64,000 bases of DNA from Branchiostoma floridae. Taxonomy: Eukaryota > Chordata > Leptocardii > Amphioxiformes > Branchiostomatidae. Below, piece after piece: positions 14,229-38,041 of the stretch (positions within the stretch are counted from its first letter, which is position 1; every line of letters starts with the position of its first letter). The notes beneath the pieces were generated by a model. That model did not search any database. It was not told where the DNA came from and worked only from the letters and a program-made list of their open reading frames with translations. The position numbers and the translations under genes are program-made. Location of the stretch: the NCBI RefSeq assembly GCF_000003815.2, contig NC_049979.1, positions 16,469,483 through 16,533,482 of the forward strand. Reading direction: 5' to 3'.

Positions 14229-17200
14229 TTAATCACACGTTATTTCCTGCAGACGCGTCCTGCAGTCCTCAGCAGAGGGCCGGTTGGCCGGATCAGTGCT
14301 CCAGCAGGCCGTCATGAGCTGTTTCCATGGAGTCGGGGCAGAAAACTCCTTGTTGGGATCTGGGCGTCTGCCTTCGGCGATTTCTTTTGAAAATTCCGTC
14401 AACCTAGAATGGGTTAGAATAACGTCTTTATGGACAACCAGTACCAAATGCTACCTTTCTTAGTACGAAATGAGCTACAACATAAATTTTTCTGTAAACA
14501 GTTAGAAAAATAAAATTGTTCAGACTCTTTAATATTTCACAATTTGTAAAGATGGCATCCCACGCACAACCTTACTGTCAATAAAGAGTTCATCCTCATT
14601 CCTAGACTACCTTGATATGAGAAGTGGGATAGTTACACACATCGGAATGGTAAAGTGCTTGGCGTGAGGCGTCTCCTCCCCGTACCACATCTCCCACAGA
14701 AGGATGCCGAAGCTGTACATGTCTGACGGTTTCCCGTAGCGTTTCTCCTGGAGGACCTCCGGCGCGATGTAGGGCGGGGTGCCGCACAGGGTTCCGGTGA
14801 TGTTTTCAGCCTTCTTGGTTAGTCCGACATCGGCGAGTTTGATGACTGCCCCATCCGTACTCGGCTCATGGATCTATGGATTGATAAGGGAAAACAGTTC
14901 TTTTAAAGGATTTCATGGCTGACTCTTTGAATCGTGTCCACATAACGTTGCATATTTTTTTTTCTCATTTTACTGGGGGGGGGGGCTGTTTAGAAGGTTA
15001 TCGTATAATATTTGGACAAATCTACACATTCTTTATATCCTATAGGCGAGCGAATACTGCAATTTCCTTTTTGATCCTACCTTAATCAAAATGTTCTCCA
15101 GTTTCAGGTCCCTGTGTACGAGGTTCACGGAGTGAATATAGCTCAGTGCTGTTGCCAACTGAACCGCCAACGGTTTGATGACGGAGAAAGCTGCTTCCCG
15201 TTCCGCGGTGCCTTTTCTGTGCTTGCCCGGGTTCCTGTTACGTGAGAAATGAACGTTTTCAAATTGGCAGATTTGTTTAGAGAGTGGTAAAAAAGAATGC
15301 TTATGTAATTAGGGCAATGGAACATAATACCATAAGATTGTGTAAACTGTCCTGCACCTATCTTTCTTGTACGAGATGTAGTCCCTCAGATTGTCCTGGC
15401 AGAGCTCAGTCACAAAGACGACCTTCTCGTGGTGTGCCCAGTAGGCGGTACCGTGGAACTTGATCACGTTCTGATGACAGAGGCGCCTGAAAATATACGC
15501 AATACCGTGTGTTTAAACTATAAATGTGGTGCTGCATCGAGCTAGGTAAAAAGACCACACTGTTTTGATATGCTGATAGACTTTCCCAGAACAGGATAGT
15601 GCACCAAATGTCTATTTTACTCGCTTGTGCCATTGTTTAATGCTATGCTAATATCCAAAAATCCTTACAAAACAGACTAAAACCTATGCCTTAAGTTTCC
15701 CAACAATTATTGGTGCAAAAAATAGGAAGCTTGGGGAAGAATGTGACTTGTGACTGAAATATAGCTTACCTCAGGTTGCGTTCCTCGTGAAGCAGGTCGG
15801 TCGCGTTTTGTGCGGAGACGCTGTCTGTCATGTACTTCATCGCCACCTCGGTGGAGTTTATCTTGGCCTTGTAGACGTCACCAAAGGAGCCGGATGCAAT
15901 CCACTCTCTTTCAACTAGGTCTTCGTATTCAATGTCGTACTGCCGAATGGTTGTCATATAGCAGCAGTTAAGCTCGCCTTGAATCTTATCGCACTTTTCA
16001 AGGCTTGGACCGTAATGTTCTTCGGTGAGAGTGATCGCTTCTTGTTTTCTCAACTTGTACCCCTCGTTCATCAGTCGCTCATCTGATTCGATAAGTTGGG
16101 GGATGGTGCCGACCAGATGATCAAGGTATGTAGATGTGGACTCCACCTGCTGTTCAACGACCCGGCGGAGATTTTCGTCTGACACGAAATCCTGCATTGT
16201 GCCATTCGCCAACTGCTCCATGTACTTCGTTTTGTTTTCCCTGTAGTCTTGCAGTTGTTTTTTGTGGGTAGCCCTTTTTTTGATTGCCATTGCGCCCGCT
16301 ACAGGGAGAGCGAACAGGCCCACTACCACCCCTATCGGTATGACCAAAGGCGAGGCTGCGCCAAGAGCAATCTTCTGCCCAATAGTGAGACCCCCTGTGC
16401 TGTACTCAGGATAGAAGACGCTGTTTCCGACTCTGTGTCCTGTAGCTGAAGGCATTACGCGCTGGCTCGCGATTACCATCTTCTCTTCGATATCTGCTAT
16501 ATCCATCTCTACAAGGTTGAACTCGGTGCGGAACTGCTGCATCAATTCGGACCGGAGCTTGCTGAAGAACTCCCTGTGCTGGTCCCACGTGCTGATTGCT
16601 TGCTGGATGCCTTGCTCTACGAGCTTTTTTGTCAGATGCTCCACCACGGTCCAGCTATCGTTGTCGGGCAGTTCCTTGTCGTCCCACTGATGGAGCCATG
16701 TACGTATTTCATCGGACGTGAGGTACAGCCGAAGATCCTTTACTGCATAGTCGACCCTCTTTTGTAAATACAGCCTCATCTTCCTTTCTGCAGAGGATGC
16801 TGCTTCACGGAGCTTCTTCAGCCTTGCATTGACACTACTCCGCTGTTTCTCCAGATCCGGGATCTCCTGACCAAGTATGTTTCCCAGCATCACGCGAAGA
16901 TGGAAGGATGACCTGTCAAGGAGATAGGTCAGCCACCTGTAGCACAGTGATGCACAGGAATGCATTAAGTATGCTGATAGGGTAGAAATATATTCTTACA
17001 CAGGTACAAACGTTACATTTTGTACACATGAAAGTTCTCAGGTGACTTACCGGTAGTTCAGCTCCACCTTGGCACGTAGCCCGGTAGGCAACAGGTCCTG
17101 TAGTCCATTCAAGAGCTTTTCAAAGTCTTTTGTGATGTAGTTGGCTTGAGAGCGGGCCAGGGCTGCCTGTAATACATGTGTTTCAGATTGAAGAGACATA

Positions 17201-20200
17201 TTGCAGTATCACACATATGCTGTCTACAAACAGCAAGCACCGTAGCAAAATGGCTTGCTGTGATTCGGGTGATATTGTCACAACTCAAACATACCGAAAT
17301 TATTCACTTGCTTTGGTATAAGCGACTGTAGCTACCAAGTTCACATAAAGCAACAAATACGAAAGCAATGCATTGACTAGACGGAGGCACAGCAGATTCA
17401 AACGCCCACCATATCAAGCACGCTCTGGTGAAGCTAAAATGAGCAATGCTTGCTACTGTCATTTTTGAAAAAAATTTATGAATCTTACACTAACTTAAGT
17501 TCACATTAGGACAGGGTGCATTTGATTATGTCGTTAAGTGTACAATATGTTACGTAAACATGAGCAGAACACATCTAAAGCCATATAAGTTTAGATCAGG
17601 TGGTATCAGACAATGTTCTACCCAGGTTAGATATCAATGGGCCACTTGTATTACGTTACCTTCTTTGCTGAGATCTTGAACACTTGAGATTCATCTAGTT
17701 CAGGCCAGCAGCATTTCAGTTTCCTGATGGTATCGTCCCACACCTCGCCTGCTTCCTTCGGCGGCACCATGTCCCACTTGTTGCACACAAAGATGGCTGA
17801 CTTCGGGTCGAACATCGGGGGCTGGTCAGGGTCACGGTCGTGGGTCAGGGCCTGTAGAAGATCCCCGAGCTGGTTGGGAAGGAACAAAGTTACCTCACCT
17901 CACTCGCGAAATTTTTCTACTTCTAGATATGGAAATAGTGAGATTTAATAGAAACTATAAAGCCAAAATGCCGTATTTCTTACTGCACCTCATAGCAACA
18001 TATATTCTGATTGTAAGAGGAAAGTAATATTCATATGATTAATTAAACAGGTTCCTACCCGGTCAGGCTGGACTCCTCCAGCGTTAGCGCTGTTGATGAT
18101 GTACATGAACGCGAAAGCATTCGGCAGGTATTTCTTCACCATCTCCGTCAGCTTTTCATTCTCCCCAACCCCTGGGCTGTCCACTATGGTGATGCCGCCC
18201 TGAATGTGGAGGGAAGTAAAATAATGATTGAGGCAGAATGCAGATGGTGCTTTGTACATTTACATTGTCTTTTGTTGTATGTCTTTAGTCTGAGGTGTCT
18301 CTCAAACCACATGAATATGGAAGGCAATTACCATGTACCTTGGTATAGGGGAGGCAATTAATACTTCGTAAATGTAGAATATTTCTCTCTCAACTTTCGT
18401 ACAAAACATTTCAGAGGTGAGATAAAATAAGCAAAATAAAATACAGACACATTATGGATATGCTTCCAAATTTACGATACTAGAATCGGAATGAACAGTT
18501 AAGAGTCATAGTAGAGCTATCTCTTGTTGATTTCCGCATACATGCAGATTGATGTTGAGATACAAAAATTACAGGACCAAACGATAAGGATCTGTGAAAT
18601 ATTTCATGGTGTAAACATACATAAGGAGGGTGCCAAAATACTTCCTGTCACATTTCCTGTCTTGTATGTACGTATGTATGTGTGCATAAAAACTGTAAAT
18701 ACCTCAAGCAATGGGAAGTCCAGGAAGATCTCGACTCTGTTGTATTCGAAGGTACGCTCATCTCTTCCCTCTTTCTGGTAGACGAACTTGGAGAGTGTCT
18801 CCATGCGGGCGTCCTTGCTGCCCTGAAGCGGTTCTTCATCGTAACTGGAGGGATCTCCTTGTTTGAAGGCCCGAATCTTCTCCTGTTTGCCATGCTTCAG
18901 CTCACAGATGGTAGATGTTGAGCTGAGGAGGGAGGAGGGCAGCAGGTCCTCCCCAAGGATCAGGTTCAGTAGGGTGCTCTTCCCTGCTGATGTCTCACCT
19001 AACCAAAAATAACGATTAAAAGCTTAATATACAACATAATCGCTGCAACACACCTATCAGGACAGTAGATTAGGAGAAAGCATTCATTGTTCCTATTCTA
19101 CTAGTGTTTGGCAAGTCACACACAACCCGTGTGTAAAAACTGTATAAGACAGTTTGGGGCCGGAGAATTATTCCAAGGGTGGAGACCAAAAGCTGTTGAC
19201 TGCGGTCATACGCGCGTACACATAGGTTGGATCTGTCAGTGAAAATAAGTTGTGTGTAATCATTACAAGGGCATTGTGTACCTGCAACCAGGATGTGGCA
19301 CGAATCGTCCCTCAGCTGTTCCAGTTTTGTCTTGAGAAGAGACTGGAATCTGGGGATGTTGGACTCGAGCTGCTGTTTAGCGGTGTCGTGAAGTTCTTCT
19401 GCATATGATGTAGCATCTTCAAAGTGGCAGCATAGCTCCTCCCGTGAGACTCGATCCTTTTCAAGGACACTTTTCATGAGACCTGCGGCCTGCACAATCA
19501 AAACAGAAAATGGGGACACTTCAGTGTTCTAGCCAGCCTGATTTCCGTCCCCTAATTGATTTTTAATTTGGAACTCCTGTTCAGCGCGACGATCCTAGGG
19601 GGGCATGCTCCCCCTGGAAAATTTTCAAATCTCTGAAACGCTATTTACTGCATTTTTAGGGGCAAATTTTGCTTGTAGACTCTGGTTGGTTCAATGGCAT
19701 TTGTTTCGATCAGGCATCAGAAGCGAAAGGTCCCTCCATCTTGCTTTATCCGATATTGATAGATCCAATCGGATAAGTAAGTGTACGTTTTAAGAAAGTA
19801 AGATAAGCATTAATTATACGGAAATGCCTTGAAAATATTGATTTTAATGACCCATGACGTCTGAACGGCGACAGATATAAAAAATTGACATATTTGCAAT
19901 CATCATTTTAAGCTTCACTCAGAGTATCAGTTTTGGAGAAAAATATTGATGTTAAGACTTTGGCTCCTCCCCCTCAATAATTTACATGTTTACACCTGTG
20001 CCCAATGAATAATGAATATTCAATTAGCACTAGCAGGAGCGTGATACATGTACCACAAAGAATCTTGAGCAAAAGAATTGTCATTTGTGAGGCAGATTTA
20101 CCGCTCTAACAAGATATCGGGTTATATATTTTCTGTAAGATGGGCTGAACGAAATCACATTCTAATCTAGGCCACTTCCAGGCATTGGCTCCTGTACTAG

Positions 20201-21612
20201 ACACACTTCAGATACTAGATTTTTGCGCCGTCGCAAAGTCGTGAGTTCCATGGAGGTGACTTTTTAAAAAGGTGAAAATTAATGAGACCGTAGAAGCCAT
20301 TCATAAAATGGATTCAGTGTGGCCTAACATTTCCAAACTTTGCGGTCAAGATTATAAAGCCACCTTCCGTAATGCACCTGTTTATCGTAAAGCTCGCTAC
20401 AATTGGCTTATCCCATAGCCCCACCCACTTCCGTCAAAATGTAGAAATGCAAAATTAAACCATAAACATGCAAACATTCTACGTATATGCAAACAAGTTC
20501 TCATTTGTTGATTGATATACTTCCATTAGAGGAACTGCTAATTGTGGTGGACAGCCAGGATCGGATATTGGAATAACAGACGGCCGTGAGATCGAGTTCA
20601 TGAAGGTAGAATGCTGCGCACCTCACGCTCAAATCTGGACGGGACAAAAAGTACCAGCCCCTCTCCCTTGTAGCCTCACATCGTTCTTAGACTTCCATTA
20701 CTGTTATCATGCTTGACAATCCGTCTCCCGCCGTATAGGGTACCGTAGAGACAAACTGTGCGAAAGTGAAAGGGCGAGGCTCGGGAGAGAGGTCACCAAA
20801 GGGCATTCAATACTGCTGTTTTGCTGGCAAGTGCGCAGATCAGCCGATGTTACCAAACGTTACGTTCAACACTAGGTGTTTCCTAGGAAGCAATAATCAC
20901 GAACCAGTCACTGTCAAACAAATACTAAAAGTTGTAGGGACTCTTTTTCCCGACCTAAAATATGGGATTCTCTATTGACAAGTCAAACACTGCGAAAATG
21001 AAAGGGGTGGGGCTTATCATGTTACTGCACAAACAAGCCAAACGTACGTCACGGCGTCATCTTATCGTTGAACATACACAAAGCCGACGTGGCACCTAAA
21101 CGTTGTGCATAATCCCGACAGAGCTGGCGCAGGTATGTGTTCTCATAGCCATGCAGCTTACAACAAATTTTGATGACTTTAATACACTGCAAGTAATGGC
21201 GTGCACATTAAGAATATTTTAGCAAAAATCATGATGCAAACGGCACATTACATTTTACAAGCTTGACTTTCATCACAAGTTCCATATGCTTGAGAATGGA
21301 CTTCATTCAACTGTAAAACAACAACTGTGCAAGATAGAATTTGCCATGACATCATGGCTCATTGGTATTATACCAAGACAGTGCTTGGTGGATAAATTTG
21401 TTACGTACAGACTCAGGTGTCCACTGTGTCTTGGATGACGTCTTGGCCAGTTCTTTCAGAAGTAGCATCTGGGCCTGCTCGATACTTTCTACGCCGTCGA
21501 TCTCCTCCGGGGCAATACTAGAGTTTTCCAGCATGTCTAATGCCTCCATTAAGTCTTTACACTCGTCTATGCTTTCCTCGGTCAAATTCGCCCGAGCCTT
21601 TGAGGCCGCCAT
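14229..21612 (-). CDS. dynamin-like GTPase fused to an apparently active C-terminal protein kinase (DSTYK-like), 1,020 residues
   Basis: Eleven exons join in frame: 21612-21409, 19489-19282, 18998-18703, 18199-18059, 17869-17660, 17166-17051, 16936-15770, 15486-15358, 15234-15081, 14873-14611, 14403-14229. Residues 1-68 are a small helical module. A helical segment follows, then a dynamin-family G domain: G1 GETSAGKST (from 138), G3 DSPGVGE (243), G4 NKWD (313-316). Residues ~392-580 are charged and helical/coiled-coil. About 581-610 is a hydrophobic stretch able to span a membrane. The kinase domain has SGSFGDVYKAK, VAMK (K about 759), HRDLKLEN (D866), DVG instead of DFG (890-892) and APE. 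Regulated phosphotransfer coupled to membrane/GTPase assembly is an inference. The closest named architecture I know is Dusty/DSTYK-like kinases. The first exon has a duplicate at 22913-23116 that could replace this one. Confidence 0.85.
19600..19670 (+). repeat. isolated copy of an amphioxus-type dispersed repeat unit in intron 1
   Basis: Contains TCTGAAACGCTATTTACTGCA close to CCCCTGGAAAATTTTCAAA. The same motif occurs three times at 50385-50910. It lies between the first and second exons of the minus-strand GTPase-kinase gene and has no coding role. Confidence 0.6.
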
Positions 21613-22912
21613 CTCGCCTGCACCTGATCTGTGGTATGGTTGGCTCACCAGACAACGCCCCAAATCCAGATGGTGGGCATTATGGGAAGGCAAAATTTAT
21701 ACCATAAGTTCAAACCTTGAGAAAGTGGGTATTCCTCACATGGCTAGATTTGCCATTCACGCAATACAACAAAAATTAATTTCGAATGTAAGCTAAAGTT
21801 TGCTTTCCTTTTCATGTTTGAGCATTTTTAAGTCTGCACTTCGACCTTGCCACTATTCAGTAGGCATTGATATGTGCAGCGGCCCTGAGCGGTCACGCAT
21901 ATCTAGATCAGGTTGTTGACACTAAAAACACGGATCTCAGGTAGGTGTGTCATGCTAGTGTCCAGGGAATTTCATACGTTTCCAATTGTAGATGTGGGCT
22001 GCTCATAAAGAAAATATGCTTAATGATTCTCAGGAAACAATGCTTTATCAGTTAAGACTCCAACATTGTCTTAAAGATGTCCGGATGGGATACATCAATG
22101 CACCAGGTGGGCGTTCCCGTAAACAGCCGGCAGATTTCGAAAATGAAAGGGGGAGGGCGTAGCTACATACATGTCGAGTGCTTAGGGTCGAAGGATAGCA
22201 TTTTGGTATTCAACGGTGCTCCCTTGGTGTATGTCAGGTTAGACCACAAACTATATCCAAGTGGACATGGCCTGGCGTGTGCAAGGTTGAGCAGACAAAA
22301 CGCTAGCATTGACGGAACATTAAAGGGTCAGTTCCTGTATTCAAAGACACGAAAAAATTCAGACGACCCCCCAAAAGTGAAAGAGGTAAGTGATCCGAGT
22401 TCGTGCCTTTGGGCCTGGCATAAAGTCTCTCTCTGTGGAAATCAAATCATTTAGCAGTGCCAAATAACCTAGCCTGTTGTTGAAAAGAAGTACTAGTGGT
22501 CGCCGGACTGTCAAACACTGAGTGTGGGAGTGTCTCTTTGTTCGTGCGGCATTTGATTTTGAATAGTAAAAGCCTGTGTGAAACCAAAAGGGGAGGGACT
22601 CGCGGTCATTTCGCTACACAAACAAGCCAAACGTCTGTCATTGCAAGGTTGCTATATCGTTTCATATGCATGGTAATGACATGCAAATTACAGTCTCTCC
22701 CGGCATAAATTACATTGGCACAGTTGGCTTGTACAGTAGATATCGTGACGCTGACGACAATTTCAAGGGGCACATGTCTTGAATGGCCTCGAGCGTTTAA
22801 TGTTGCAACTAAAAACTACAACAATACCAAATACCACATACCGGTGCCAACTGGCTCATAGTATGGTATCATTATCATGCCACAATGCTCGGTAGATAAA
22901 CTTGTTACGTAC

Positions 22913-23116
22913 AGATTCAGGTGTCCATAGTGTCCTGGATGACGCCTTGGCCAGTTCTTTCAGAAGTAGTATTAAGGCCTCTTCAAGAGTTTTTACACCG
23001 TCGATCTCCTCCTGGGCAATATTCCAGTTCTCCAGCATGTCTAACGCCCCCATTAAGTCTTTACACTCCTCTATGCTTTCCTCGGTCAAATCTACCTGAG
23101 CCTTTGAAGCCGCCAT
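22913..23116 (-). CDS. duplicated alternative first coding exon of the minus-strand GTPase-kinase gene
   Basis: Encodes 68 residues beginning MAASKAQVDLTEESIEECKD, closely similar to the exon at 21409-21612. It has the same 204-bp length, phase 0 end and donor (TCT followed by GTACGT). It could splice to the exon at 19489 just as the nearer copy does. Sequence inside the downstream intron is duplicated too (ACAAACAAGCCAAACGT at about 21030 and 22619), so a block of roughly 1.5 kb was tandemly duplicated. The product would differ only in the N-terminal helical module, which suggests alternative promoters/isoforms or a remnant of a larger gene duplication. Confidence 0.7.
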
Positions 23117-25242
23117 CTCTCCTGTAAGTCAAGACCTGTTATACCTGTTGGGCGCATGATCCTGTTCATCCAATCCTAAATATAGACGGCGCTACAAGAC
23201 TAGCTTAGTGTGTGCAGTGAGCATACTGGTAGAAGGTAAGGTTACAAACAGTAAATTTGGTTTGAATACACGCATGTTTTACCTTACCTGACAGTTGGTT
23301 CTTCGGCAATAAAGCTATGTAACCGTTAACTACTACAGGGCATGTTTTCTTTAATTAAAAAAAAATATGCTGATGTTTTGTAGACAGGTCATAGGTTACA
23401 CTAAACCTGACAGGCTGAGCAAAACCGCATATACCGTATTACCTGTTGGCTAGTCCATGCGGATTTTTTCATGTTTGCAAAATTCTCTGATCCCATTGTG
23501 TCATAAAATGACCTTGTGTTGTTCGAGAGAAAGAGGATAAATTATAACAATAATCCTTTTTGCATGAAATTAAATATTAGACCTTTGTGCGGACGAGAAC
23601 GTGTACTTTAGTCTTGAACTAGTTTCACATTTAAATCTTTGCTGCAGAACGGTACACAATCAAAAGGTAGTTGAAGTTCATATACAAGTTGATGTTATAC
23701 ATCCGTCAATGCTTGAACAACGAGACGTTTACATAATGGCCTGTATCTAAATAGAAGGGCGATCTACAAACAGTAGCTAAAAGTAGCTTACGTTTGAAAG
23801 TAATGGGGGAGGGGGAACAATAACGTCTCCTCAACGGATTAAATCAGAAGATGTAACAGGGTCTTCAAAGCACATACTACATTACATCAGTGACTACTTC
23901 TTCAAGACCTAATAGACCTTGAATTATTAATATTGGTTAATGTAAGGTAAATGATAGGGTAGGGCGTTCCATTTTGTAAGTGATTCCATTTGCTAACATG
24001 TTCAAATGTACCCGCCATCAAGGATATAATGTAACGTTACTAATACCGCCTTTCTACGGGGAAAGCACCGCGCTTTCTTTGATGTCAGAAAGATTCGGCC
24101 AGAGCCCTCAGCGAGCGAGGTGGGATCACCAAGGTCGTCATGAGCGCACAAGGAGCACCATGATCGCGAAGGTCGCCATCACCTCGACGAAACAATTCAA
24201 ATCAGTCGCCGTGCGCCACCAGAGCAAAGAGCGTCCGCCGAAAAAAGAGTGCAGTGAGCGCTCACCAGGAGCGCAGTGAGCGCCAAATTAGCGCATGCAC
24301 AACGGGTACTGTGAGCGCATGATCACAGCAATCGCTCAATGAGCGCCCAAGGGTCACAGGGAGTGCTTGAACGTTTCGAACATCTCTCAAGGAGCGCCCA
24401 GTGGTCACAGGGAGCGCTTTCAAGACCATTTTTAAGAACATTTCGTTGCGCAGGGAGCGCAGACCGGTCATCACAGAGATTTCACTAGTGCGCGTGCAGC
24501 GAAATATGTTCTTAACATAAGCGACAAGTCGCAGGAGATCTCTGAGATCCCAGAGCTCGTTACCGAGTCGCAGATCCTGCGTGCAAATCGTGCGTACCTC
24601 GCAAGGGCCGACATTAGATTGATAGCGTGAGTCAGTCCAACGATTGAAGACCAATAGGCGAGTGCATACCTAGTTATTAATCATCGAGCGCAAATTGGAT
24701 GGCATACGTCCGTCAGTCGGGCGACGTTCGAGCGACGTTCGTCCGACTTCCGTTTGTTCACAAATATTCCTGGGAATGGGAGGGTAATTCTGACATTGTG
24801 GTCCCCGTGGTAGTATGTAGGCTGGGTTTGTGACACGCTTTCCTTTCTTGTGTCATTTCTTTTATGCCCGTGCATTCCATTCATTGGTAAAAAAAGATTC
24901 CGACAACAAAATACGCAACGTTTATTAATCTCTTGCCTTTTTTGAGGAACGTTTTGTGTTACCTTTTCCGCGTGCAAGAGGTCATGGGAGGTTCATTATC
25001 ATAGATTTATTCACCGTCGATCGCACGAGCCTCGCTTAAATGTGACAGGGACAGTTTTTGGGCGACAAATACGCAAGACCCTCTGAAGATCTTAAAATTT
25101 GCCGACCTTCCTGCGATCGCGAAGTACGTCCGAAGATCGTATATAATGTGACAGGGGTATTATGGGCAAGGTGCAACATATTGTCATTTAAGGTCGTAAT
25201 TATTTTTTCCCCATCCCAACAATCAGTGACATTGTCCTCAAC
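23117..25242. promoter_or_regulatory. divergent intergenic region between the two GTPase-kinase paralogs
   Basis: About 2.1 kb separates the outermost minus-strand start codon (23116) from the plus-strand start (25243), so it must hold both promoters or a shared bidirectional one. 24090-24480 is distinctive: GC-richer, with many GAGCGC/GGGAGCGC words (for example GAGCGCAGTGAGCGC at 24249 and repeated GGTCACAGGGAGCGCTT). No TATA box or start site can be named with confidence. No exon was recognised. Confidence 0.5.
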
Positions 25243-28200
25243 ATGGCGACGGAAGTCAGTGAGGAGAAGGCACAGTTGACCGAAGATGAAGTAGCCAGTG
25301 TTCGGAACCTGCGCGAGGCTAGGAGGCTTTCGAGCAATCACAACATTTCGCTGGAAGGAGTGAAGACCCTGGAGCAAATAAAAGAGAGGCTGCTTCAACA
25401 TGTGTTGGACAAAACGACGACGAAGGAAGACTTTGAAGTCAGTAGGATATAAATTTTACCGTCGTTTTGATAAACTCATGGGAAATATAGCGATGTTCAT
25501 AGTCATGCAATGCAATTCTGTAACGTTACATGTTTTTAAAGCTAATTACGTTCGGATGGTCTTTTTAATCGAAATATACGTATATTGCGCTTAGAAGTCG
25601 TTTCATATAGCAAAATTCCATATTTACCTTTATCGTCAATTATGCAAATGCCAATATTTATATTTGCATTCATTCTAAGCCACACGTATATTGTAACGTA
25701 TATTTGCTAATCTATTCGATGCAGATACTTAAGTCTACTATTTTGTCCCCAGATTCTTGCTGTCGTAGCAGACCTAAAAGATGACGACAGAAGAAAGCGA
25801 CAGTTATTAAAGGAGCGCATCAAGGAGATGAGAGAGTTCCTGAGGGGCTGTGACAGAAGCGTCGAGGCGCACCTCAGAATAGAGCAGACGGTAACAGACG
25901 TCGAGCAGGACTTTGATTCCCGACTCGAGCAGTTGGAGTCGGACTGCCCTATTCTCGTGGCAGGTAGATCTACAAAATGTTCTTCGCATCATATTGAGTC
26001 TTGCATGAAATGTGGATAGCTCGCTTTTAGAGATGTTGTCGGGCACATCGTACAACTGCGCGTTGAGTACCAGTCACTTTTCAAAACTTATTTTTGTTCG
26101 TCATTATCTTTCAACTTAACTACCTGTGATATGAAATCTTTTATTCTAAAACTTCTGATGATTTCAGCAGCGTTTTATCGTGTGATTCTTTAACGCAATT
26201 ACCATAGTCCTGCAGAAATTCGATCGTGCCATCATTTTCACGCTTATGGGGACGATCGCAATAGTTAACTGAGCCCTGTACAATATGTTTCAGGCGAAAC
26301 CTCGTCAGGCAAAAGCAGTTTGATCAACCTTCTCTTAGGAGAAGATCTACTCCCATCAGCCCATCTTAGCAGCACGTCTGTCATCTGTAAGATCAGGTAC
26401 GGGGACAAGAAAAGAGCCGTCATCAACTACGCTGACGGTCGGCAGGAAACCCTCCCCCTCCCGGATGGAGAGGATGCAGAGTCGTTCACGTCTGTTCTCC
26501 ACACCCACCTGCACAAGAAGGCAGACAGAGAGAAGCGGTCCCAATATCAAGATGTGGAAATATTCGTTCCACTGAAATTTCTGAAGGTATGCAACACATC
26601 TTACATCTCTCAGCCTCCCGCGCAGAACCTATAGGGCTGTCGGTGGGCTTCACTTTTCTGCGCTTTATCTGTTCTCTTGCCAGTTATACTATGGTCAATT
26701 ATGTCAGCTTGGCCATATTGAAACATGAAATACCGTGAGAATAAAAAAAACGCCGGCAACCGCTTGCGTTGACAATGTTTGGATTTTGAAATTGGCTCCG
26801 TGAGCTAAGTTATTCGACGCGGAGTTTATATTACCATTTGATGACTGCGATTGCGAATGTGATAACGGCTCATAATACACAATACACGCCAAGTAATGAT
26901 ACAATTTGTGCCTTTATTTCGCTGGAACAGAGTGGTATCTTCATCGTAGACGGCCCGGGGATTGGAGAGAATGAGGCCATGGACAGCGTGCTGCTGGACT
27001 ACCTTCCAAGTGCATTCGCCTTCATCTACGTCATCAAGAGTGACAACGCCGGTGGCGTGCAGAAAGATAGGGTGAGAAACTCATTGTGTATTTCATGAAA
27101 TGCCCTTGTGGACCTTTGAACGTTCACAAATGAGGATAAGAAGCTTGGGACACAAACACTTATTTCTATTCAATTATCTTTGTTATTCACAGCTTCAACA
27201 GTTATTGAAAACTGTTGCAAAAAGAGCCAAGCTACAGACAGTGAACCCTGCCGCCGCCATGTTCGTCTGTAACAGGTGGGATTTGGTCGAAGAAAGTGAG
27301 CGTGAGAAAGTGAGACGTGACACAGTCCACAAGTTGAAGACGTGTTGGCCAGGATTCAGGCAGACGCAGCTCTTCTTCATGGACAGCAAGTCCGAACTGG
27401 AGAACTCCAGGCACGGTCACAGGTCACGGGATTTCGAGAACCTCCTGTATGGCATCCGAAACCTCATCCCATGCAGTCTGCAGGCAAAGATACGTGCCTC
27501 CTCCAGGTAATAAAAACTTTCAATCGTTAGCAAATGTCGCTTAATTGCTCCCTAACTGTGCACTCTCACTGCACTTGCGTCAAGCTTGCGTCACTGAGGC
27601 ATTCGTTCACTGCATCACTGTTTTGTTACTTTCTCCGATCTTTTTTATAACCTAGATATTGCGTCATACGTAAAAAATTGACTTAGAAGACGACAAAATA
27701 CACAAAAAGTTAGAAAATTCGTTCTTTATCTCTGAAATTCGTTCAGTATGTTCGAACCCCGCAGTGACGCAAGCTTAACGCAAGTGCAGTGATAGTGCAC
27801 CTTAAGTATTGTTGCTACATGTTGGCCTGGCTACAGAAACACTATTTGAAGATCAGCACATTGAAATTTCTGGTGGGATATTGATAAAACACATCTATTC
27901 TTTCTAATGTTAAGATGATATCAATAATATTGCTTCCGTTTATAGGTGGCTTGAGTACCTCGTCAGCCGTGTTCTCCATCACGTGAAGACATACTTGTAT
28001 AAGTCAAAGATGACCAGCATCAAGCTCAAGGAAGTTTTCCGTCAGACAAGAGAGAATTTGAAAGAGATCCAAGGTGAAGCAGACAAAACCATATCCATGC
28101 TAAGCAAAGAGGTACAAAAAAGTATCGAAGGAGCAGTAGGCCATCTGAAGACCTACCTGGAGTCACCGGAGGCAGAGCACGCCATGAAAGGTTGGAGGAA

Positions 28201-30248
28201 AACGGTCATCCCAGAAGTGACGGAAGGAGTCGAGTGGGAGGTTGTGATGTACGAAATGGAGACCTGCATCAGTAATCGCATGGAGAAGGTTGTAGAGGAA
28301 TGGGGGGCGGAGAAAGGCAACATGGGGTCTGAGATGGACCGCCTGATGGACCGGTTGAAGACCGAAATCACCCCACTTCAACTTCGGCTGAAACAAATTG
28401 AAGAAGAGATCGAGGTTATTGGGAAAAGTGGTAAGAACCAGTCGGAGATAGTGAGACGCATCTCTTTGGGGAGGTTTATGCGAACGTTCGACCAGGATGA
28501 GGTGGGGATCGAGAGCACCTCCATGAAGAGATTGGACCGAAAAGACAGTACCACCAACATGGATCTGACGTCGTCCCTTCTGGCCCTCAGCATTGTTGGA
28601 GCTGTCGCAGCAGGACCGGTTCTCGCTTTCTACGGTGTGCAGTCTCTCCGGAAGAAGTACAAAGACAAGAAAGAAAAGGACAGGTATGCAGAAGAGGGGC
28701 CAAAGTACGTCGAAAAAAAGGCGGTTGAAGCCCTAAAGGAGTTTTGCAAGAACGACGAAGGGATTCGCAAGTACGTAGAGGAAAGCTACAAGCCAATTCG
28801 AGATCGGATGGAGAGCTTCCAAACCAGCCTCCAGAAGCAAGTGAAGGCACAGCTGCAGCTCATGGCAAAGATCGAAGACGACCGCCGAAGCAAGCAGCAG
28901 CTTGACTCCGACTTCAATCCTATGCTGAAGACGATGGAAGAAATGCAAGCTAAACTGGAACTGTTCAACCTACAGGAGCTCCCCCTGGTGCATCCTGATG
29001 CTGTCTGTTGCCAGAGTACAGAGGAAACCGTTGTAAGCAACTCAGTCCTTGCCGTATGTGTCAAGGGATCTATGGAAGGAAGGGAGGTGATTATCAAGAA
29101 ATCCCTCGGTGCAATCGATGTTGAAAGTGCGCGAGACATTGGAAGGATGAGGTTAGCATAGGTTACAAGAACTTTCAGATGTCAAATTGTCAATTTACTC
29201 TGTTCATTGTACGTTGGTTATTGAGACGAGGTTGCCACATCTTGCATTGTTTAACCTGCATCTCTTCTTTATGCATCCTTTCCTCTAGAAACATTCACCA
29301 TCCAAACATTTTGGCTTTCAAGGGAGTCGACTTTTCATCAGGTGCACCCAGACTGGTCCTTCAGACAGCTGACAAAACTCTGCGGCAATTACTCCCTGTC
29401 GGTGCTGTTCACTACAGCAGTGGGTACGTCTTCCGACACACCATCCTGCCTGCCATCAGGGCAATCTCTGACGCCCTCTCCTACCTGCACGAGAACAACC
29501 TTGTCAGCTTTGAGTTGTCACAGGACACAGTCCAGGTAATTACGATAGGTATAGTTTATTTGTCCCAAATAATATTGGTCATTGTCACCAGGAAGTTAAT
29601 TGTTATCACCTGTCATCTTTTCGTCTCAGTTTGAAGCTAAGGGAGACAATCAGTTCAAGCTTCTTCACGTCGGCGTCCCCCGAAAGGTTAACCTTCCTCC
29701 AGATGTCGACAAGAAGGGAGGGGCGTTCGTCTACCTCCCACCTGAGACGCTCCAGGGAGATCACCTGTACGACAGTCGCTCTGACATGTACAGCCTCGGG
29801 CTGATGATGTGGGAACTGTGGTACCACCAAAAGGTGAGGTAGCACAAGCTGTAAAATCGGTTTTGTGTTTGATAAACTTCAAGTCGCCGTTGAAGTTTAC
29901 GAATTATTTCAAGTCGATAAACAAGAGTTGATTTAATTTATGCCCACTTGTTTGCATGGAAAGATGCTATTAATACTTTTGTTCTGTCAATAAAGATAAT
30001 ATATATATTTACTCCCATCCTACCATCTACAGGCATTCGATGCTGTGACTGACCTGCCATTGGACATGTTCCTCGGAGTTATGGACGACAGGTGCCCGAG
30101 CACATCCGACCCCGGCCCGATGAACGGCATGTCTGCGGACGTGGGGAACAGATGGAGGGACATGATTGACAGGTGCCTTGTGCTGTCAAGAGAAGGACGA
30201 GACATTTCCCCATCTGACGTCATCAAGGTTCTAGACAGTATCCCGTGA
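25243..30248 (+). CDS. dynamin-like GTPase fused to a C-terminal pseudokinase (DSTYK-like paralog), 1,008 residues
   Basis: Nine exons join in frame: 25243-25437, 25753-25963, 26294-26586, 26931-27071, 27193-27506, 27946-29151, 29289-29535, 29630-29833, 30033-30248. Splice phases largely match the minus-strand paralog. G motifs are intact: GETSSGKSS (136), DGPGIGE (240), and NRWD (307-310), where the usual Lys of NKxD is Arg. A charged helical region leads to a hydrophobic segment at about 594-619. The kinase-like domain keeps a VAIK-type lysine (VIIKK) but has no glycine-rich loop. HRDLKxEN is replaced by SFELSQDT (860-867), DFG by HVG (882-884) and APE by PPE, so catalysis is not expected. 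A role as allosteric partner or scaffold for the active paralog is inference. 26931-29833 contains no frame breaks, so it is not a pseudogene. Confidence 0.87.
27558..27800. mobile_element. MITE with ~43-bp terminal inverted repeats in intron 5 of the pseudokinase gene
   Basis: Left end at 27558 reads GTGCACTCTCACTGCACTTG and continues CGTCAAGCTTGCGTCACTG. The reverse complement of 27758-27800 gives the same with a few substitutions (GTGCACTATCACTGCACTTG, CGTTAAGCTTGCGTCACTG). The 243-bp element has an AT-rich non-coding core. The flanks (CTAACT left, CTTAAG right) do not give a clear target-site duplication. Confidence 0.75.
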
Positions 30249-32368: not shown

Positions 32369-35300
32369 ATGGGTTCTAAGAAAGTGGCCATCATAGGAGC
32401 CGGGGTGAGCGGACTCACGTCAATCAAGGCTTGTCTGGAGGAGGGGCTTCAGCCTGTGTGTTTCGAGCAACATGATGATCTCGGTAAGAACCTGGCATTA
32501 CATGTCTTATATGCTGATGCAACAACGTTGAATAATGAAATCCCATTCTAATCATGACAAAAACATTTAAATCATTATGGAATAGATTTTTCTTCCTACT
32601 GCCCTATGAAAGGGATGAAAATAGAAGGGAGGGATAAAAGATTGTAAGTAGCCTATGTGTAGGTGTGTGTGATTTTACCATATCCCAACATTCCTATCCA
32701 CACAAAGCCTGTTTAACTTCCCTATCGTCAGTTTTTAAAGTCAATAGTGCCCAAGTTGTTATGCTATAAGCTTGCCAAAATCAATCCATGTCTACTTGTG
32801 TGCTACTGCTAGTAATCTCAGTGCAAACTGCAATTCCAGGCGGCGTATGGTACTACTCTGACGACGTCAGGCCCAACCAAGGCGCCGCCATGTACCGCTC
32901 TCTCATCACCAACTCCAGCAAAGAAATGATGTCATTCAGCGACTTCCCCTTCCCTAAGGACACGCCCCCCTACCTGCCGTACCACCGTGTGTACACATAT
33001 CTACAGGACTACGCTCAGCACTTCGACCTGAAGAAACACATCCGATTCGGCACACAGGTGGGAATATTCTTGTTGTTGAACCACACCCTCTGCTTCTTTA
33101 CCACCTGTACTAAATCGTTGTTCTGTTGTTCTCCTTTCTCACGTTCAAAATTGATATAATTGTGTATCACTCCAGGTCCGGCGCATAGAGAAGACAGAAG
33201 ACTATAATGAGACAGGCCGGTGGGAGGTCCGTACCGTACAGACGGGGAACAGCGATGTGGAACAGAAAGAAATCTTTGACGCCATCATGGTACGTACTTG
33301 CGTGGCCATAGAAATAGAAATGTTAAACACAGAGATGACTGATAATCTTCGATGAAGTGTCAAAGATCCAACCGACCACTTGCGACATCTTCTACAGGTG
33401 CGGTCTACATGTGATTATCAAAGCTGCGACGGTCCACCTTTCTTTGGTACTTACATACTGTACTTACATTCCATATGTAAGTTAACTCATCTCAACTTCA
33501 CCTCACGATTCCCTACTTCCTTCCCAGGTGTGTAACGGCGTGTTCGCCCGGCCGTACGTTCCAGACGTGCCAGGTCTGTCGGACTTCTCAGGCGTCACCA
33601 TGCACAGTCAGGAGTACCGGACTGCCCAACAGTTCACAGGGAAGAAGGTGGTTGTTGTAGGTCAGTTATCGCCTTCCACTTACATCCTGTGTTTAAAGGG
33701 GCATTCCACTCCAGAAGGGAGTATTGTTTTCCAATAGATAATGTATCAATGAATGCATAATCAGCCGAACTTTGTGGAATTCACCTTGGGATGAATTACG
33801 TGATTTGTGTTTTATAAAACAATAATGACACTCACTAAACCCATGCAGACCCTACCCATGCATTCCCTATACGCATAGACACTTTGTTTATCGTACATAT
33901 TTTCGGAATAAATGAGGTACGCTAAGCACACCGAGAAGGCAAATTGCTCATAAGATAGCAAAGAATACAAGAACAAGACGAGGTTTCTTAGCGAATCTGA
34001 AATTAGTTTTGTAACCTTAACTAAAAGTTTTGCATTGTATTCAGCCATAGGATTAATTCAATTAGAGGGTACTTGTGGAGTTTAGTAGAACATTGAATGC
34101 TTTTGAGGCATGTGGAGCAACTGGGTACTTTATCGTATAATGTGAAGTAGTATGTAGTTATCACTTCCTAAAATTGATATCTATCGGAAAATAACACTCC
34201 CGTGTGGAGTGGAATGCCCCTTTAAGCTGTGTCTAGCCAAATGACTTGAGATAACCTCATTCATGCGCGATTCTATCTGCAGGGGCGGGAAACTCTGCAG
34301 GCGACGTGGCGGCGGAGATCGCTCAGGTGGCGTCACAGGTGAGAGTAAACGTTTATGACAACTGCCGTGCTATAGTCTCCTTTAATTTGATCCCTACTTA
34401 TTTCTCCCCTTCGCTAAACCTGTCCGCCAAAACCCATACCCCTAAATGTGCATATCCGGATGGTACTTTAAACTGTTTTATCAGTTCCATTTGACCCTTC
34501 CCCATGGACGTGCACTGTTCATCCTGACAACCCTTGCCGTTCCGCAGGTGTACCTGAGTCTGAGGGACGGTGCCTGGGTGCTCCCCCGGCTGGCTCAGGC
34601 CGGGATGCCGCGGGACATGATGCTGCGCCGGGTACTCATGAGCATGCCCGAGTTCATCGTCAACAAAATCATTAAGGGCGAGGCGAACGCCAGAGTGTGC
34701 CATGACAACTACGGGCTGACGTGTCCGGCCGAACCGCTCAAACATTCCGTCATGGCTAATGATGAAATAGGGTACAGACTGGTCACTGGGCAGGTAAGGT
34801 TGTACAGAGCATAATGTAAATGTATCGATGAACAATAGACAACATTTCATGCAGTCTGGTTGGTGTTTGTGCTTCTAATGATGTGTTGTTAGACTGTTTA
34901 TTCAGTTGTTTATCTTGCCATGTGTGCCAGTGACAATTTTATAGCGCATCATGTCTAATGTGATATGTAATCGTAACTGCTCCTTGATAATCACACACCT
35001 GTCCCCAACAGGTCATCACGAAGCCCCAGCTCTCCCGGTTCACCCAGCACACCGCTCGGTTCGAGGACGGCAGTACAGTGGACGGACTGGACGCTGTGGT
35101 GTTCGCCACTGGCTTCAGTCTGGCGTTTAACTTCAGTGACAAGTCCATTCTTCCTGGTAAGTTTCTTGCATGTTTTTTGAAACTCTTCATGAAACTCTTA
35201 GAAATTTTTGTTTCACCTCATGTGGTGATTGCAAGTCTGTCTGCATTGTATCTTCTACTTTAGTCTGTAAGTTAAATGCATAGAAGATCTATTCAAAAGT

Positions 35301-38041
35301 GTCAAAGGCGCTCTTGTGAACATGGCTAAGAAGTACAATGCAAGTTTGGAAACCCCATTTATCCTGTTCTTTCTCAGATAACACGGAGGACCTGAACCTG
35401 TACAAGTTGGTGTTCCCTACGGAGCTGACAAAACCCACCCTGTCCGTGATCGGCTGCCTGTCTACCATAGGGGCCCATCCTCCTATCTACGAACTGCAGG
35501 CTCGCTGGGCCGTCAGGGTGTTCTTGGTAAGTGGGACGTTTCAGTGATTCCGCCCTGCGGTCACCACAGGTGTTTGAATAGCCACAACTGGCTATAGTAG
35601 ACTGTGTAACTGGGCAAACAAATGGGCAACGCATAATGAAGTAAGCAAACAATAGGTTAAGTTACCCTTACGATTTCGCTGGTGACAAACAAATGACATT
35701 CATCCATCAAAGATGATATGTACTTATCTGAAGACATGAGACATTAACTTCACATTGCCCACTTATTCTTTTCCCAGGGCCTGAGTAAGCTTCCCGACAA
35801 GGAGACCATGCTGAAGCGGGTCCGCTCCGACAAGCTGGAGCTGAAGCAGCGGTTCGGCTACGTCAAGCTTCAGGTAACACGGGTTTGTCAAATCTTGATA
35901 TATGAGCAGTATAAACTCAAGAGTCGGGTGTATTGTTATTGTGCGTTCAATCCATTGATATTGTGCGTATTTTGGCCAGAGCAAGTACAAAACGTTTTAG
36001 CTAAGCTCGACATCAACAAGGCCAAGGCCCGGACTCAATACCTGCCAGGGTCTTGAAACATGCTGCAACCGAGCTATCTAAACCCCTAGCAAAGCTCTTT
36101 CAGCTCTTGCTAGACAAACACTATATGCCGAAGCAGTGGAAAGTTGCCCACGTGATACCAGTTCATAAAAAGAACAACAAACACGACCCTAGCAACTACC
36201 GCCCAATATCACTTCTCAGCATTATAAGCAAAGTGATGGAATCAATCATAAACAAAGCCCTGTGGAAACACATCTCCGAGAACCATCTCATAAGTGACAA
36301 GCAGTTCGGATTCAGGGCTGGGCACTCCACAGCAGATGCACTGACGTACGTCATTCAACACCTGCATGACGCCAAGGACAAAAGACAGGAAAGCAGACTG
36401 ATATGCCTGGACATAAGCAGAGCGTTCGACCGCGTATGGCACAAGGGGTTGATTGCCAAGCTGAAAGCCATCGGCGTCGATGGGAAGGTGCTAAACTGGA
36501 TTGAGAACTACCTTGCAGACAGAGAACTGAAAGCCATTATCAGCGGAAAAACATCCACCGCCAGAGTCATTAACGCGGGAGTCCCCCAAGGCTCAATCCT
36601 TGGCCCCTTGCTCTTCATCATTTATATCAATGATTTGACAGAAAAGCTGGAAAACACATCGATGCTGTATGCCGATGACTCATCAATCATGAGCATTATA
36701 AAAGAAAGACGTGAAAGAGCTAGGGCAGCCCAGTCACTGAACTCAGACCTGGAAGAAATACAAAATTGGGCAAACAGCTGGAACGTCATATTCGGAGCCA
36801 CAAAGTGTAAGTGCATGACAATTAGCAACTTGAAGGACGCAGTAGGCAACCACCCAGAACTCAGCTTCACGGACACTACACTCGCAGAGGTAGATGAAGT
36901 TGATCTCTTAGGCGCAACAATCCGAAAAGACCTGACATGGAATCACCACATAAAGAAGATGGCCGCGGACGCAGGAAAACGCCTGGGTCTACTGCGAAGA
37001 GCCGCCCCCTACCTCAACCCTCAACAGAGAGCCATCATATACAAGAGTATGGTGCGATCCAGCATGGAATATGCCTCAACCGTCTGGATGGGAGCTTGCT
37101 CCACCTCACTCGACCTACTCAACGCCATCCAAAGAAGGGCCACCAAGATCATAGACCTCCCCGAAACTGACCTGTACAAATATCAGATTCAGCCCCTGGA
37201 ACAACGCAGAAACGTAGGGGCTCTCACCCTCCTGCACCGCATGTACAACCACGACGCACCTGCACCACTCAACAGTCTACTTCCTGAACCCTATACACAT
37301 CGACGTGAAACCCGCCTGTCTACATCTCAACAATGCAACGCCTTGGAGCCTGTGAAATCAGCTACCACATCGCACCGTCGTACCTTCCTCCCGGCCACAA
37401 CAAAACTCTGGAACTTACTGCCTCAGCACATAGTGACACTTAGGGACAAACAGAAGTTTAAGACAAGTATCAACAACCACTTCAGCGACCTACGTCAGCG
37501 CCCTTAAGGACAGCTGCTAATGCTGAAGATCGGAGTATGACTACATAGATAAAAAAAAAAAAAAAATCCGCGGCTAACACCCTGCAATGCGAAATAGTTA
37601 AACCAAGGAGGTTACTAGCTTGTGAAAGAGTTTAAATATCAAAGTAGTAGGGCCAATCATTGGATTAAAGAGTGTACTCCATGTTCCCTGCCTAACCTGA
37701 ATCACATGCTGTCTATATTCCAGATGATGAACGTGCCGTACCGGGATGACATTGCCGAAGAGATCGGAGTGAAACCGTCGTTTTGGAAGCTCCTTCCTCG
37801 GGACCCAAAACTAGCTTTCCTCAGCTACTTCGGCCCCGCTTTCTCTGTCCAGTACCGCCTGCTGGGGCCACACCCCTGGTCAGGTGCAGCTGACCACGCC
37901 AAGTCAGCCCTGGCCAACACCCTGTACCCCTTCAGGTCACCTGCTCTGGACAAGGAACAGTCCTTCCTTTCATTGGCCAAAATCATGAAGTTTCTCTTGC
38001 TGTTCGGGATTGCAATGGTGGCCTTTAATCGTTTTATGTGA
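32369..38041 (+). CDS. flavin-containing monooxygenase, 529 residues, complete
   Basis: NADPH- and O2-dependent oxidation of soft nucleophiles (N, S) is the family function. It is expected on the ER membrane. Ten exons close in frame: 32369-32483, 32840-33057, 33176-33289, 33528-33660, 34283-34338, 34548-34793, 35012-35156, 35378-35526, 35778-35873, 37724-38041. FAD-binding Rossmann motif GAGVSGL is at the N terminus. The FMO signature [11 protein letters not shown] and the NADPH motif GAGNSAGD (split by intron 4) follow, then FATGF. The C terminus ends in a hydrophobic tail ([13 protein letters not shown]) typical of ER-anchored FMOs. Length matches vertebrate FMOs (about 530). Orthology to a particular FMO1-5 cannot be assigned and lineage-specific duplication is likely. 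Intron 4 contains a MITE and intron 9 a LINE. Neither touches the coding frame. Confidence 0.95.
33693..34225. mobile_element. TTAA-flanked inverted-repeat element in FMO intron 4
   Basis: Left end TTAAAGGGGCATTCCACTCC (from 33693) is mirrored by GGAGTGGAATGCCCCTTTAA ending at 34225. The similarity extends inward (GGGAGTATTGTTTTCC versus GGGAGTGTTATTTTCC). The element is about 530 bp with no coding domain. TTAA at both outer edges is the target site of piggyBac-type elements, but it could also be part of the inverted repeat, so the superfamily is tentative. Confidence 0.75.
35965..37566 (+). mobile_element. 5'-truncated non-LTR retrotransposon (Jockey/CR1-like) in FMO intron 9
   Basis: An uninterrupted frame from about 36032 to 37507 encodes reverse transcriptase: [21 protein letters not shown], the catalytic [25 protein letters not shown] and YADD (codons at 36668-36679). 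It ends with the thumb and C-terminal region usual for these LINEs. Just upstream (about 35975-36030) homology continues in a different frame ([12 protein letters not shown]), which implies a single-base frameshift near 36029. No endonuclease domain is present, so it is 5'-truncated. It ends in a 16-A tail at 37551-37566. It is in the same orientation as the host gene. Clade assignment is from motif style only, and the exact 5' boundary is uncertain. Confidence 0.9.

Follow-up and report, generated by a model that had tools for sequence, protein, structure and literature searches.

Why should two neighbouring genes of a lancelet encode the same joining of a dynamin-type GTPase to a protein kinase, one with its catalytic motifs intact and the other with those motifs lost? 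The question is raised by a stretch of 64 kilobases (kb) of the Branchiostoma floridae genome (NC_049979.1, positions 16,469,483 to 16,533,482; hereafter the window, on contig C1), in which a minus-strand gene (23116-14229, 11 exons, 1020 amino acids) and a plus-strand gene (25243-30248, 9 exons, 1008 amino acids) point away from one another (Table 1). Both proteins consist, in order, of a short helical module, a second helical stretch, a GTPase, a long helical arm that a hydrophobic segment interrupts, and, at the C terminus, a kinase; a sequence-only reading of this DNA had described two such divergent fusion genes with one order of parts, and coordinates, parts, and motifs all agree with it in the gene models and in Pfam. 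The minus protein matches Dynamin_N with E 7.8e-21 (75.2 bits; curated cut-off 27) and Pkinase with E 4.5e-45, and the plus protein matches the same profiles with E 4.2e-20 (72.9 bits; cut-off 27) and E 6.2e-14 (52.5 bits; cut-off 31.7), respectively. The motifs read GETSAGKS, DSPG, NKWD, VAMK, HRDLKLEN, ADVG, and APE in the minus protein, and GETSSGKS, DGPG, NRWD, VIIKK, VSFELSQDTV (for HRDLKxxN), LLHVG (for DFG), and PPE in the plus protein. By their G1, G3, and G4 motifs and by Dynamin_N matches above the curated cut-off, both proteins are identified as dynamin superfamily GTPases. Judged in the same way, the minus protein is a kinase with intact catalytic motifs (the VAxK lysine, HRD, the DFG aspartate, and APE are all present), and the plus protein is classed as a pseudokinase, with SFE and HVG in place of HRD and DFG in a domain that matches the Pkinase fold at 52.5 bits. 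The catalytic lysine, HRD, and D(V)G of the minus gene, and the retained GTPase and the SFE and HVG of the plus gene, were thus read in both sequences just as the earlier reading gave them. The two proteins are 47% identical over the GTPase and 16-32% identical over the six other regions compared. No Pfam match to a Roc or COR domain of the LRRK/ROCO type was found at E ≤ 1 in either protein, and the N-terminal module received no convincing name from Pfam or NCBIfam (best NCBIfam E 0.011, far below the cut-off).

The gene models were made manually from a six-frame reading, and the exons were joined by a script that reported splice sites and phases. The open reading frame is unbroken through both genes, and all model introns are GT...AG. 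The near-matching exon phases claimed earlier hold for most of the models, with these exceptions: the plus gene lacks two introns that interrupt the minus gene, and the final intron has phase 2 in the model of the minus gene but phase 0 in that of the plus gene. For the first exon of the minus gene there are two candidates, separated by 1.5 kb. Each contains an ATG and is followed by a phase-0 GTACGT donor, and the modules they encode have 75% protein identity and a ratio of nonsynonymous to synonymous substitution (dN/dS) of 0.40, which suggests that both have been kept.

The wider family was sought in the genome of the window, a 513-megabase (Mb) assembly of 431 contigs. Searches with both proteins and with the G1 exon placed members on contigs C1, C2, C10, C15, C16, C156, and C223. 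The G1 exon gave 21 matches at E ≤ 0.01 and hence at least 20 genes, since one exon was matched in two halves. In 12 of the 20 genes, the catalytic letters of the kinase were read, leaving out C16, C2 at 0.75 Mb, C156 at 5 kb, 32 kb, and 857 kb, C223 (catalytic loop), and both C15 genes. Back-to-back minus and plus members stand at five places: the window, a second pair on C1 (16.586-16.600 Mb, with a further plus-strand copy reaching to 16.621 Mb), C2 at 1.685-1.712 Mb, C2 at 30.260-30.282 Mb, and C10 at 14.254-14.305 Mb. Judged by motifs, all five consist of one intact kinase and one pseudokinase. In the second C1 pair, the minus gene of which ends about 86 kb beyond the end of the window plus gene, the minus gene is intact (VALK, HRDLKLEN, ADVG, APE) and the plus-strand copies are dead, the nearer (C1p2) reading VSFFLS-stop-DTV and the farther (C1p3) VSFVLSQDTV and LAHVG. 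On C2 at 30.26/30.27 Mb, the minus gene is the dead member (VHLDLSLSTV, LTNIG) and the plus gene the live one (VALK, HRDLKLEN, CDVG), and on C10 the minus gene is live (MHRDLKLEN, ADMG) and the plus gene dead (VHIELSMDTV, SPC). In the C2 pair at 1.69/1.70 Mb, the plus gene is dead (VHAELSLDNV, LTNIG), and its minus partner was predicted to be live ahead of reading its kinase letters, which agreed (ADLG, YAAPE, VHRDLKLDN); the prediction was only partly blind, as a live-type query had already matched the DFG exon of this gene at 46% identity. Since the live/dead split is kept in five of five divergent pairs, it is no local accident of the window, and the conservation that the earlier reading called for is answered here by paralogues of one genome and not by other species.

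Several features of these loci are worth recording beside the pairs. Exon 10 of the two C1 live kinases (14611-14873 in the window and C1:16586579-16586791) has 88-90% protein identity and 91% DNA identity over 198 nucleotides, and the remaining aligned stretches of the two genes have about 41-74% protein identity; this looks like gene conversion. In C1p2, the catalytic-loop exon is interrupted by an in-frame TAG, with a gap of 100 bases after it (C1:16600619-16600858), and in C1p3 a 2.5-kb gap covers most of the middle of the copy (C1:16616940-16621451); either assembly error or decay may be the cause. Kinase arrays occur on C12 at 0.6-0.98 Mb, C8 at 24.05-24.10 Mb, C10 at 15.16 Mb, and C4 at 3.8 Mb, among others, mostly with frames of about 900-1000 residues, and three array kinases at C4 3.8 Mb match the minus protein only at its kinase end (residues 711-1016).

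The recurrence of the same live/dead pairing at four further places suggests that the two window proteins work as one unit, and the pseudokinase exon is under constraint between the window plus gene and C1p3 (dN/dS 0.31). The reading we put forward, tentatively and at a confidence somewhat short of even, is that they are the two subunits of an assembly that is driven by GTP and associated with a membrane, the pseudokinase exerting control over the kinase. Under this scheme, both proteins would be made together and bind each other through their GTPase domains and arms; GTP loading would then drive assembly on a membrane, into which the hydrophobic segment would insert. Assembly would bring the kinase domains together, and the pseudokinase subunit would either switch its partner on or hold it off, whereupon the active subunit would phosphorylate a downstream target as well as itself. 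Specificity for an input or a partner might come from the N-terminal helical modules, which are variable and include the alternative first exons. Pseudokinase-type controllers of partner kinases are familiar from HER3, STRAD, and FAM20A. Joint production from a shared promoter, as proposed in the earlier reading, is likely in the second C1 pair, where the start codons are 593 bases apart, and is possible in the window pair, with 2127 bases between its start codons. It is not general, as the G1 exons of the C10 pair are about 40 kb apart (the G1 search found no other family G1 exon between them, in sequence that is itself unread).

That last point weighs against the two-subunit assembly, and so do several others. 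Intact kinases also exist outside divergent pairs, in the C156 cluster, and a partner is therefore not always needed. C1p2, the nearer pseudokinase copy of the second C1 pair, has an in-frame stop and then a gap, and the comparison of C1p2 with C1p3 gives a dN/dS of 0.61, indicating weak constraint. The value of 0.31 for the window plus gene and C1p3 is calculated over a dS of 1.33, near saturation. The kinase exons at C2 1.685 Mb were assigned to the GTPase gene at 1.693 Mb by strand and nearness.

Most of these observations would be expected under an alternative that we consider unlikely but take seriously, namely, that an ancestral divergent pair was segmentally duplicated and that the two lineages, though linked, now function separately, the member with intact motifs serving as a kinase and its neighbor as a GTPase scaffold whose kinase fold is vestigial. 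The unpartnered C156 kinases, the distance of about 40 kb on C10, the stop in C1p2, and the dN/dS of 0.61 are all in its favor. Against it stands the retention of one member of each kind in five of five divergent pairs. A C1p3 pseudokinase query against the genome at E ≤ 0.01 gave, among the 14 matches listed, nine in pair pseudokinase genes (C1p3 included) and five in intact-type or other kinases, and no such pseudokinase gene lay away from a pair among them, except C1p3 itself, in tandem behind C1p2. The dead domain is also more conserved (55% in the exon between the window plus protein and C1p3) than the helical arm (about 34% between the window plus protein and C1p2).

If the two proteins do assemble, the pseudokinase protein might act as a decoy or brake, poisoning or titrating the kinase by joining the GTPase assembly, with release of the brake as the signal, as in some plant paired NLRs. 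The retention of GTPase motifs and alignable arms in both proteins is compatible with this version. According to PMC10561179, plant pairs such as Pik-1/Pik-2 and RRS1/RPS4 consist of two related proteins, one of them a sensor or regulator, encoded by linked genes that are sometimes head to head with a shared promoter, and one partner can negatively regulate the other. The plant proteins are, however, unrelated to those of the lancelet, an immune or pathogen-related role of the lancelet pair would be conjecture, and a brake and an activator are indistinguishable from sequence; we regard the decoy as improbable.

The age of the split was approached through trees of the kinase domains. With four other kinases of the genome as outgroup, five dead domains fall on one side of a branch supported at 100/98; in a longer alignment with added rows and no outgroup, the pseudokinase branch has support of 99/98, and of 88/85 after removal of the catalytic-motif columns. 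With those columns removed, forcing the dead kinase beside its own neighbor was rejected for C1 (p 0.00245) and C10 (p 0.00106) and marginally rejected for C2 at 30 Mb (p 0.0355, uncorrected). The motif letters point the same way: all six dead copies read are without the arginine and lysine of HRDLK, and four of the five dead tree rows have [YF]VYL[AP]PE, the fifth having TVYLHPD. Because the pseudokinases group together and decay within the pair is rejected in three of the four groupings tested, the live/dead split is probably old, and a single ancestral divergent pair copied as a unit is the simplest history for these sequences.

This dating also has evidence against it. The trees have few rows, from which the C1p2 kinase piece was excluded because of its stop and gap and in which the rows C2m_1.69 and C156_864 are 41% and 49% filled, and long branches were flagged. 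The neighbor grouping was not rejected for the C2 pair at 1.7 Mb (p 0.268), in which the live row is a fragment. A tree of the GTPase, built to see whether the split extends outside the kinase, places the C1 live genes together (100/98), and likewise the C1 dead genes (100/99), and its deeper order is unresolved: a pseudokinase clade is present in 42% of bootstrap trees and is not rejected (p 0.45), and the live and dead labels are without clear clustering (50 of 500 shuffles as low).

On a rival account, each dead kinase arose separately from a copy of its neighbor, and the recurring division is a coincidence. The varied decay of the HRD motif (SFE, SFV, HLD, HAE, HIE) and the result for the C2 1.7-Mb pair would suit such a history; the loss of the same arginine and lysine in all six copies read, the common stretch around PPE (with its TVYLHPD variant), the branch joining the dead kinases at 99/98, and the three rejections out of four do not. 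We regard independent decay as mostly refuted on this sequence evidence and as very improbable. That the fusions are a product of gene prediction, with GTPase and kinase exons belonging to separate genes, is scarcely credible even for models made from genomic sequence, as the helical arm and the kinase N-lobe share a single exon in both window genes, the frame likewise stays open across this junction in paralogous exons at the second C1 pair, C10 (both genes), C223, and C2 1.70 Mb, and phases and splice sites fit throughout.

As to what kind of GTPase the family employs, the minus protein was searched against solved structures. Its best relatives are the bacterial dynamin-like protein BDLP (2j68, E 7.6e-13), 5owv (E 1.5e-8; a Campylobacter dynamin-like protein), IniA (6j72, E 2.6e-5), and mitofusin-2 (E 6e-4), and more distant families follow with E ≥ 0.07 for IRG proteins and E ≥ 0.29 for dynamin-1-like proteins. 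On these matches, the family GTPase is of the bacterial-dynamin/mitofusin type, with bacterial dynamin-like proteins and mitofusins as its nearest solved GTPases. An identity as an immune GTPase of the IRG, GBP, or Mx kind was considered and rejected for the minus protein, as the closest relatives lie elsewhere, IRGB10 reaches only E 0.07, and no GBP or Mx row appears at E ≤ 1. The likeness to BDLP and mitofusins may extend to the helical arms with an internal hydrophobic segment, for example GQKIALGAASPLVIPIGVVVGLFALPVAGAMAI, which lies between the two arms. The pattern G-x-x-[SA]-P-x-x-[ILV]-P-x-G is found there in four of eight aligned arm rows; the window plus protein is hydrophobic at this site and has no such pattern, and the C10 pseudokinase is weaker in hydrophobicity. 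The BDLP paddle sits at a comparable place within its helical arms, and the lancelet segment may be a paddle of the same kind. The membrane anchoring asserted by the earlier reading needs correction to an inference: the hydrophobic segment is internal and, in the C10 pseudokinase, weak. The lancelet family differs from BDLP and mitofusins in its C-terminal kinase domain and in its arm region, the profile of which gave no BDLP or mitofusin match among solved structures (best E 0.018, to an unrelated coiled-coil protein). No kinase-like frame was found among the 484 open reading frames of at least 100 amino acids at 31 bacterial loci with related GTPases, and hence no prokaryotic GTPase-kinase fusion was found in these loci.

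A relative of the family may be present in vertebrates as DSTYK. A human DSTYK sequence, approximate as a query, matched an apparent orthologue in the B. floridae genome at C5:29542455-29543684, which was read over its N-terminal part. No Pfam domain was detected in that N terminus. A two-row alignment of the DSTYK N termini nevertheless aligned with the family GTPase profile in hhalign with a score of 50.0 (probability 91.6, E 8e-7); none of 100 column-shuffled versions scored above 20.3, and the reversed alignment reached 11.8; the single sequences scored 34.1 (probability 44.8) and 35.1 (probability 50.3), both above the best two-row shuffle. The P-loop, by contrast, has been lost, the site reading GQSCDAKAS in the lancelet copy and GQDCNVKCQ in the human protein. 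At the C-terminal end, the human DSTYK kinase scores 76.6 to 99.8 bits with three live family kinases, 62.4 and 56.6 bits with two other kinases of the genome, and 30.8 bits with the window pseudokinase. Kinase trees join DSTYK to the live family kinases at 100/98 against eight kinases of the genome, none of which is of TKL type as far as we recognize them, and weakly, at 83/84, with a long DSTYK branch and only four TK/TKL controls. The DSTYK N terminus is thus likely to be a degenerate homologue of the family GTPase and DSTYK a relative in which the GTPase has decayed; it is not known to have a paired pseudokinase. The placement of DSTYK among kinases is reported to be disputed (PMC9573974), and the gene has been linked to spastic paraplegia and urinary tract malformation (PMC8490499), scoliosis (PMC6981171), and STING signaling (PMC11933320). 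The protein is reported to sit on late endosomes and lysosomes, and its overexpression to promote their fusion, with enlarged fused compartments (PMC6981171), an effect that would fit a dynamin-type ancestor.

Table 1. Features of the divergent GTPase/kinase gene pair, in window positions
Feature	Position	Strand	Basis
Minus gene first exon A, helical module, ATG at 23116	22913..23116	-	gene model; 86% DNA identity to exon B over 243 nucleotides
Minus gene alternative first exon B	21409..21612	-	gene model; dN 0.12, dS 0.31 vs exon A
Minus gene exon 2, helical lead-in, ends HILVAG	19282..19489	-	gene model
Minus gene exon 3, G1 GETSAGKST	18703..18998	-	gene model, Pfam, structure-profile matches
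Minus gene exon 4, G3 DSPG	18059..18199	-	gene model, motif comparison
Minus gene exon 5, G4 NKWD	17660..17869	-	gene model, motif comparison
Minus gene exon 6, GTPase end	17051..17166	-	gene model
Minus gene exon 7, two helical arms with the hydrophobic segment between them, then glycine loop and VAMK lysine of the kinase	15770..16936	-	
Minus protein hydrophobic segment, best 19-residue hydropathy window 2.38	16291..16371	-	coordinates by hand from residue numbers
Minus gene exon 8, kinase	15358..15486	-	gene model
Minus gene exon 9, catalytic loop HRDLKLEN	15081..15234	-	gene model, motif comparison
Minus gene exon 10, ADVG and APE	14611..14873	-	gene model, motif comparison
Minus gene exon 11, kinase end and stop	14229..14403	-	gene model
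Region between start codons, candidate shared promoter	23117..25242	.	gene model; inference
Plus gene exon 1, helical module	25243..25437	+	gene model
Plus gene exon 2	25753..25963	+	gene model
Plus gene exon 3, G1 GETSSGKSS	26294..26586	+	gene model, Pfam
Plus gene exon 4, G3 DGPG	26931..27071	+	gene model, motif comparison
Plus gene exon 5, G4 NRWD and GTPase end	27193..27506	+	gene model, motif comparison
Plus gene exon 6, helical arms with hydrophobic segment, then a degenerate N-lobe of the kinase that retains the VIIKK lysine but has no visible glycine loop	27946..29151	+	
Plus protein hydrophobic segment, best 19-residue hydropathy window 2.11	28556..28630	+	coordinates by hand from residue numbers
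Plus gene exon 7, dead catalytic loop VSFELSQDTV	29289..29535	+	gene model, motif comparison
Plus gene exon 8, HVG replacing DFG, PPE	29630..29833	+	gene model, motif comparison
Plus gene exon 9, end and stop	30033..30248	+	gene model

The window has other content besides the pair. A single open frame of 2310 residues on the minus strand (41412-48341), with ketoacyl synthase, acyl transferase, dehydratase, methyltransferase, zinc-dehydrogenase (enoyl reductase-like), and ketoreductase domains, is by its domain content an animal type I polyketide synthase. A flavin monooxygenase-like gene on the plus strand (32770-38038) has exons flanking a 500-residue reverse-transcriptase frame at 36005-37504 that seems to be an intronic element of the LINE type, and a minus-strand exon at 861-1928 encodes an RWD domain and a CCCH zinc finger and is DHX57-like. 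Runs of N lie at about 9.9-10.0 kb and 48.95-49.3 kb.

The pairing of a TKL-type kinase with a pseudokinase partner is known from RIPK3/MLKL and other pairs, and the lancelet pair resembles them in this respect. It differs from RIPK3/MLKL in that each lancelet partner carries its own dynamin-type GTPase, with one architecture common to both. Among the matches listed in a search of open-licence literature, titles and the beginnings of abstracts contained no description of dynamin-kinase fusions, of their pairing, or of a GTPase origin of DSTYK, though absence is only weakly indicated by this. Each of the three ingredients (dynamin-type GTPases, TKL-like kinases, and pseudokinase partners) is known separately, and on that weak evidence, their combination may be new as far as the literature found extends. 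A broader and rather doubtful possibility is that the family is an animal counterpart of the plant paired immune receptors: an old, recopied head-to-head pair forming a mixed dynamin-type membrane assembly, in which the pseudokinase would be the sensor or regulator and the kinase the executor, with vertebrate DSTYK as a surviving single-gene relative with a decayed GTPase. Apart from that possibility, the comparison offers an origin for the N-terminal half of DSTYK that can be tested. For the lancelet family itself, GTP-driven membrane assembly and phosphorylation would be joined in one polypeptide. Partnerships between kinases and pseudokinases are usually found singly, by biochemistry, and here, one is pointed to by genome structure alone; as there are at least five copies of it, each retaining a live and a dead member, partner recognition and divergence would be testable across natural replicates.

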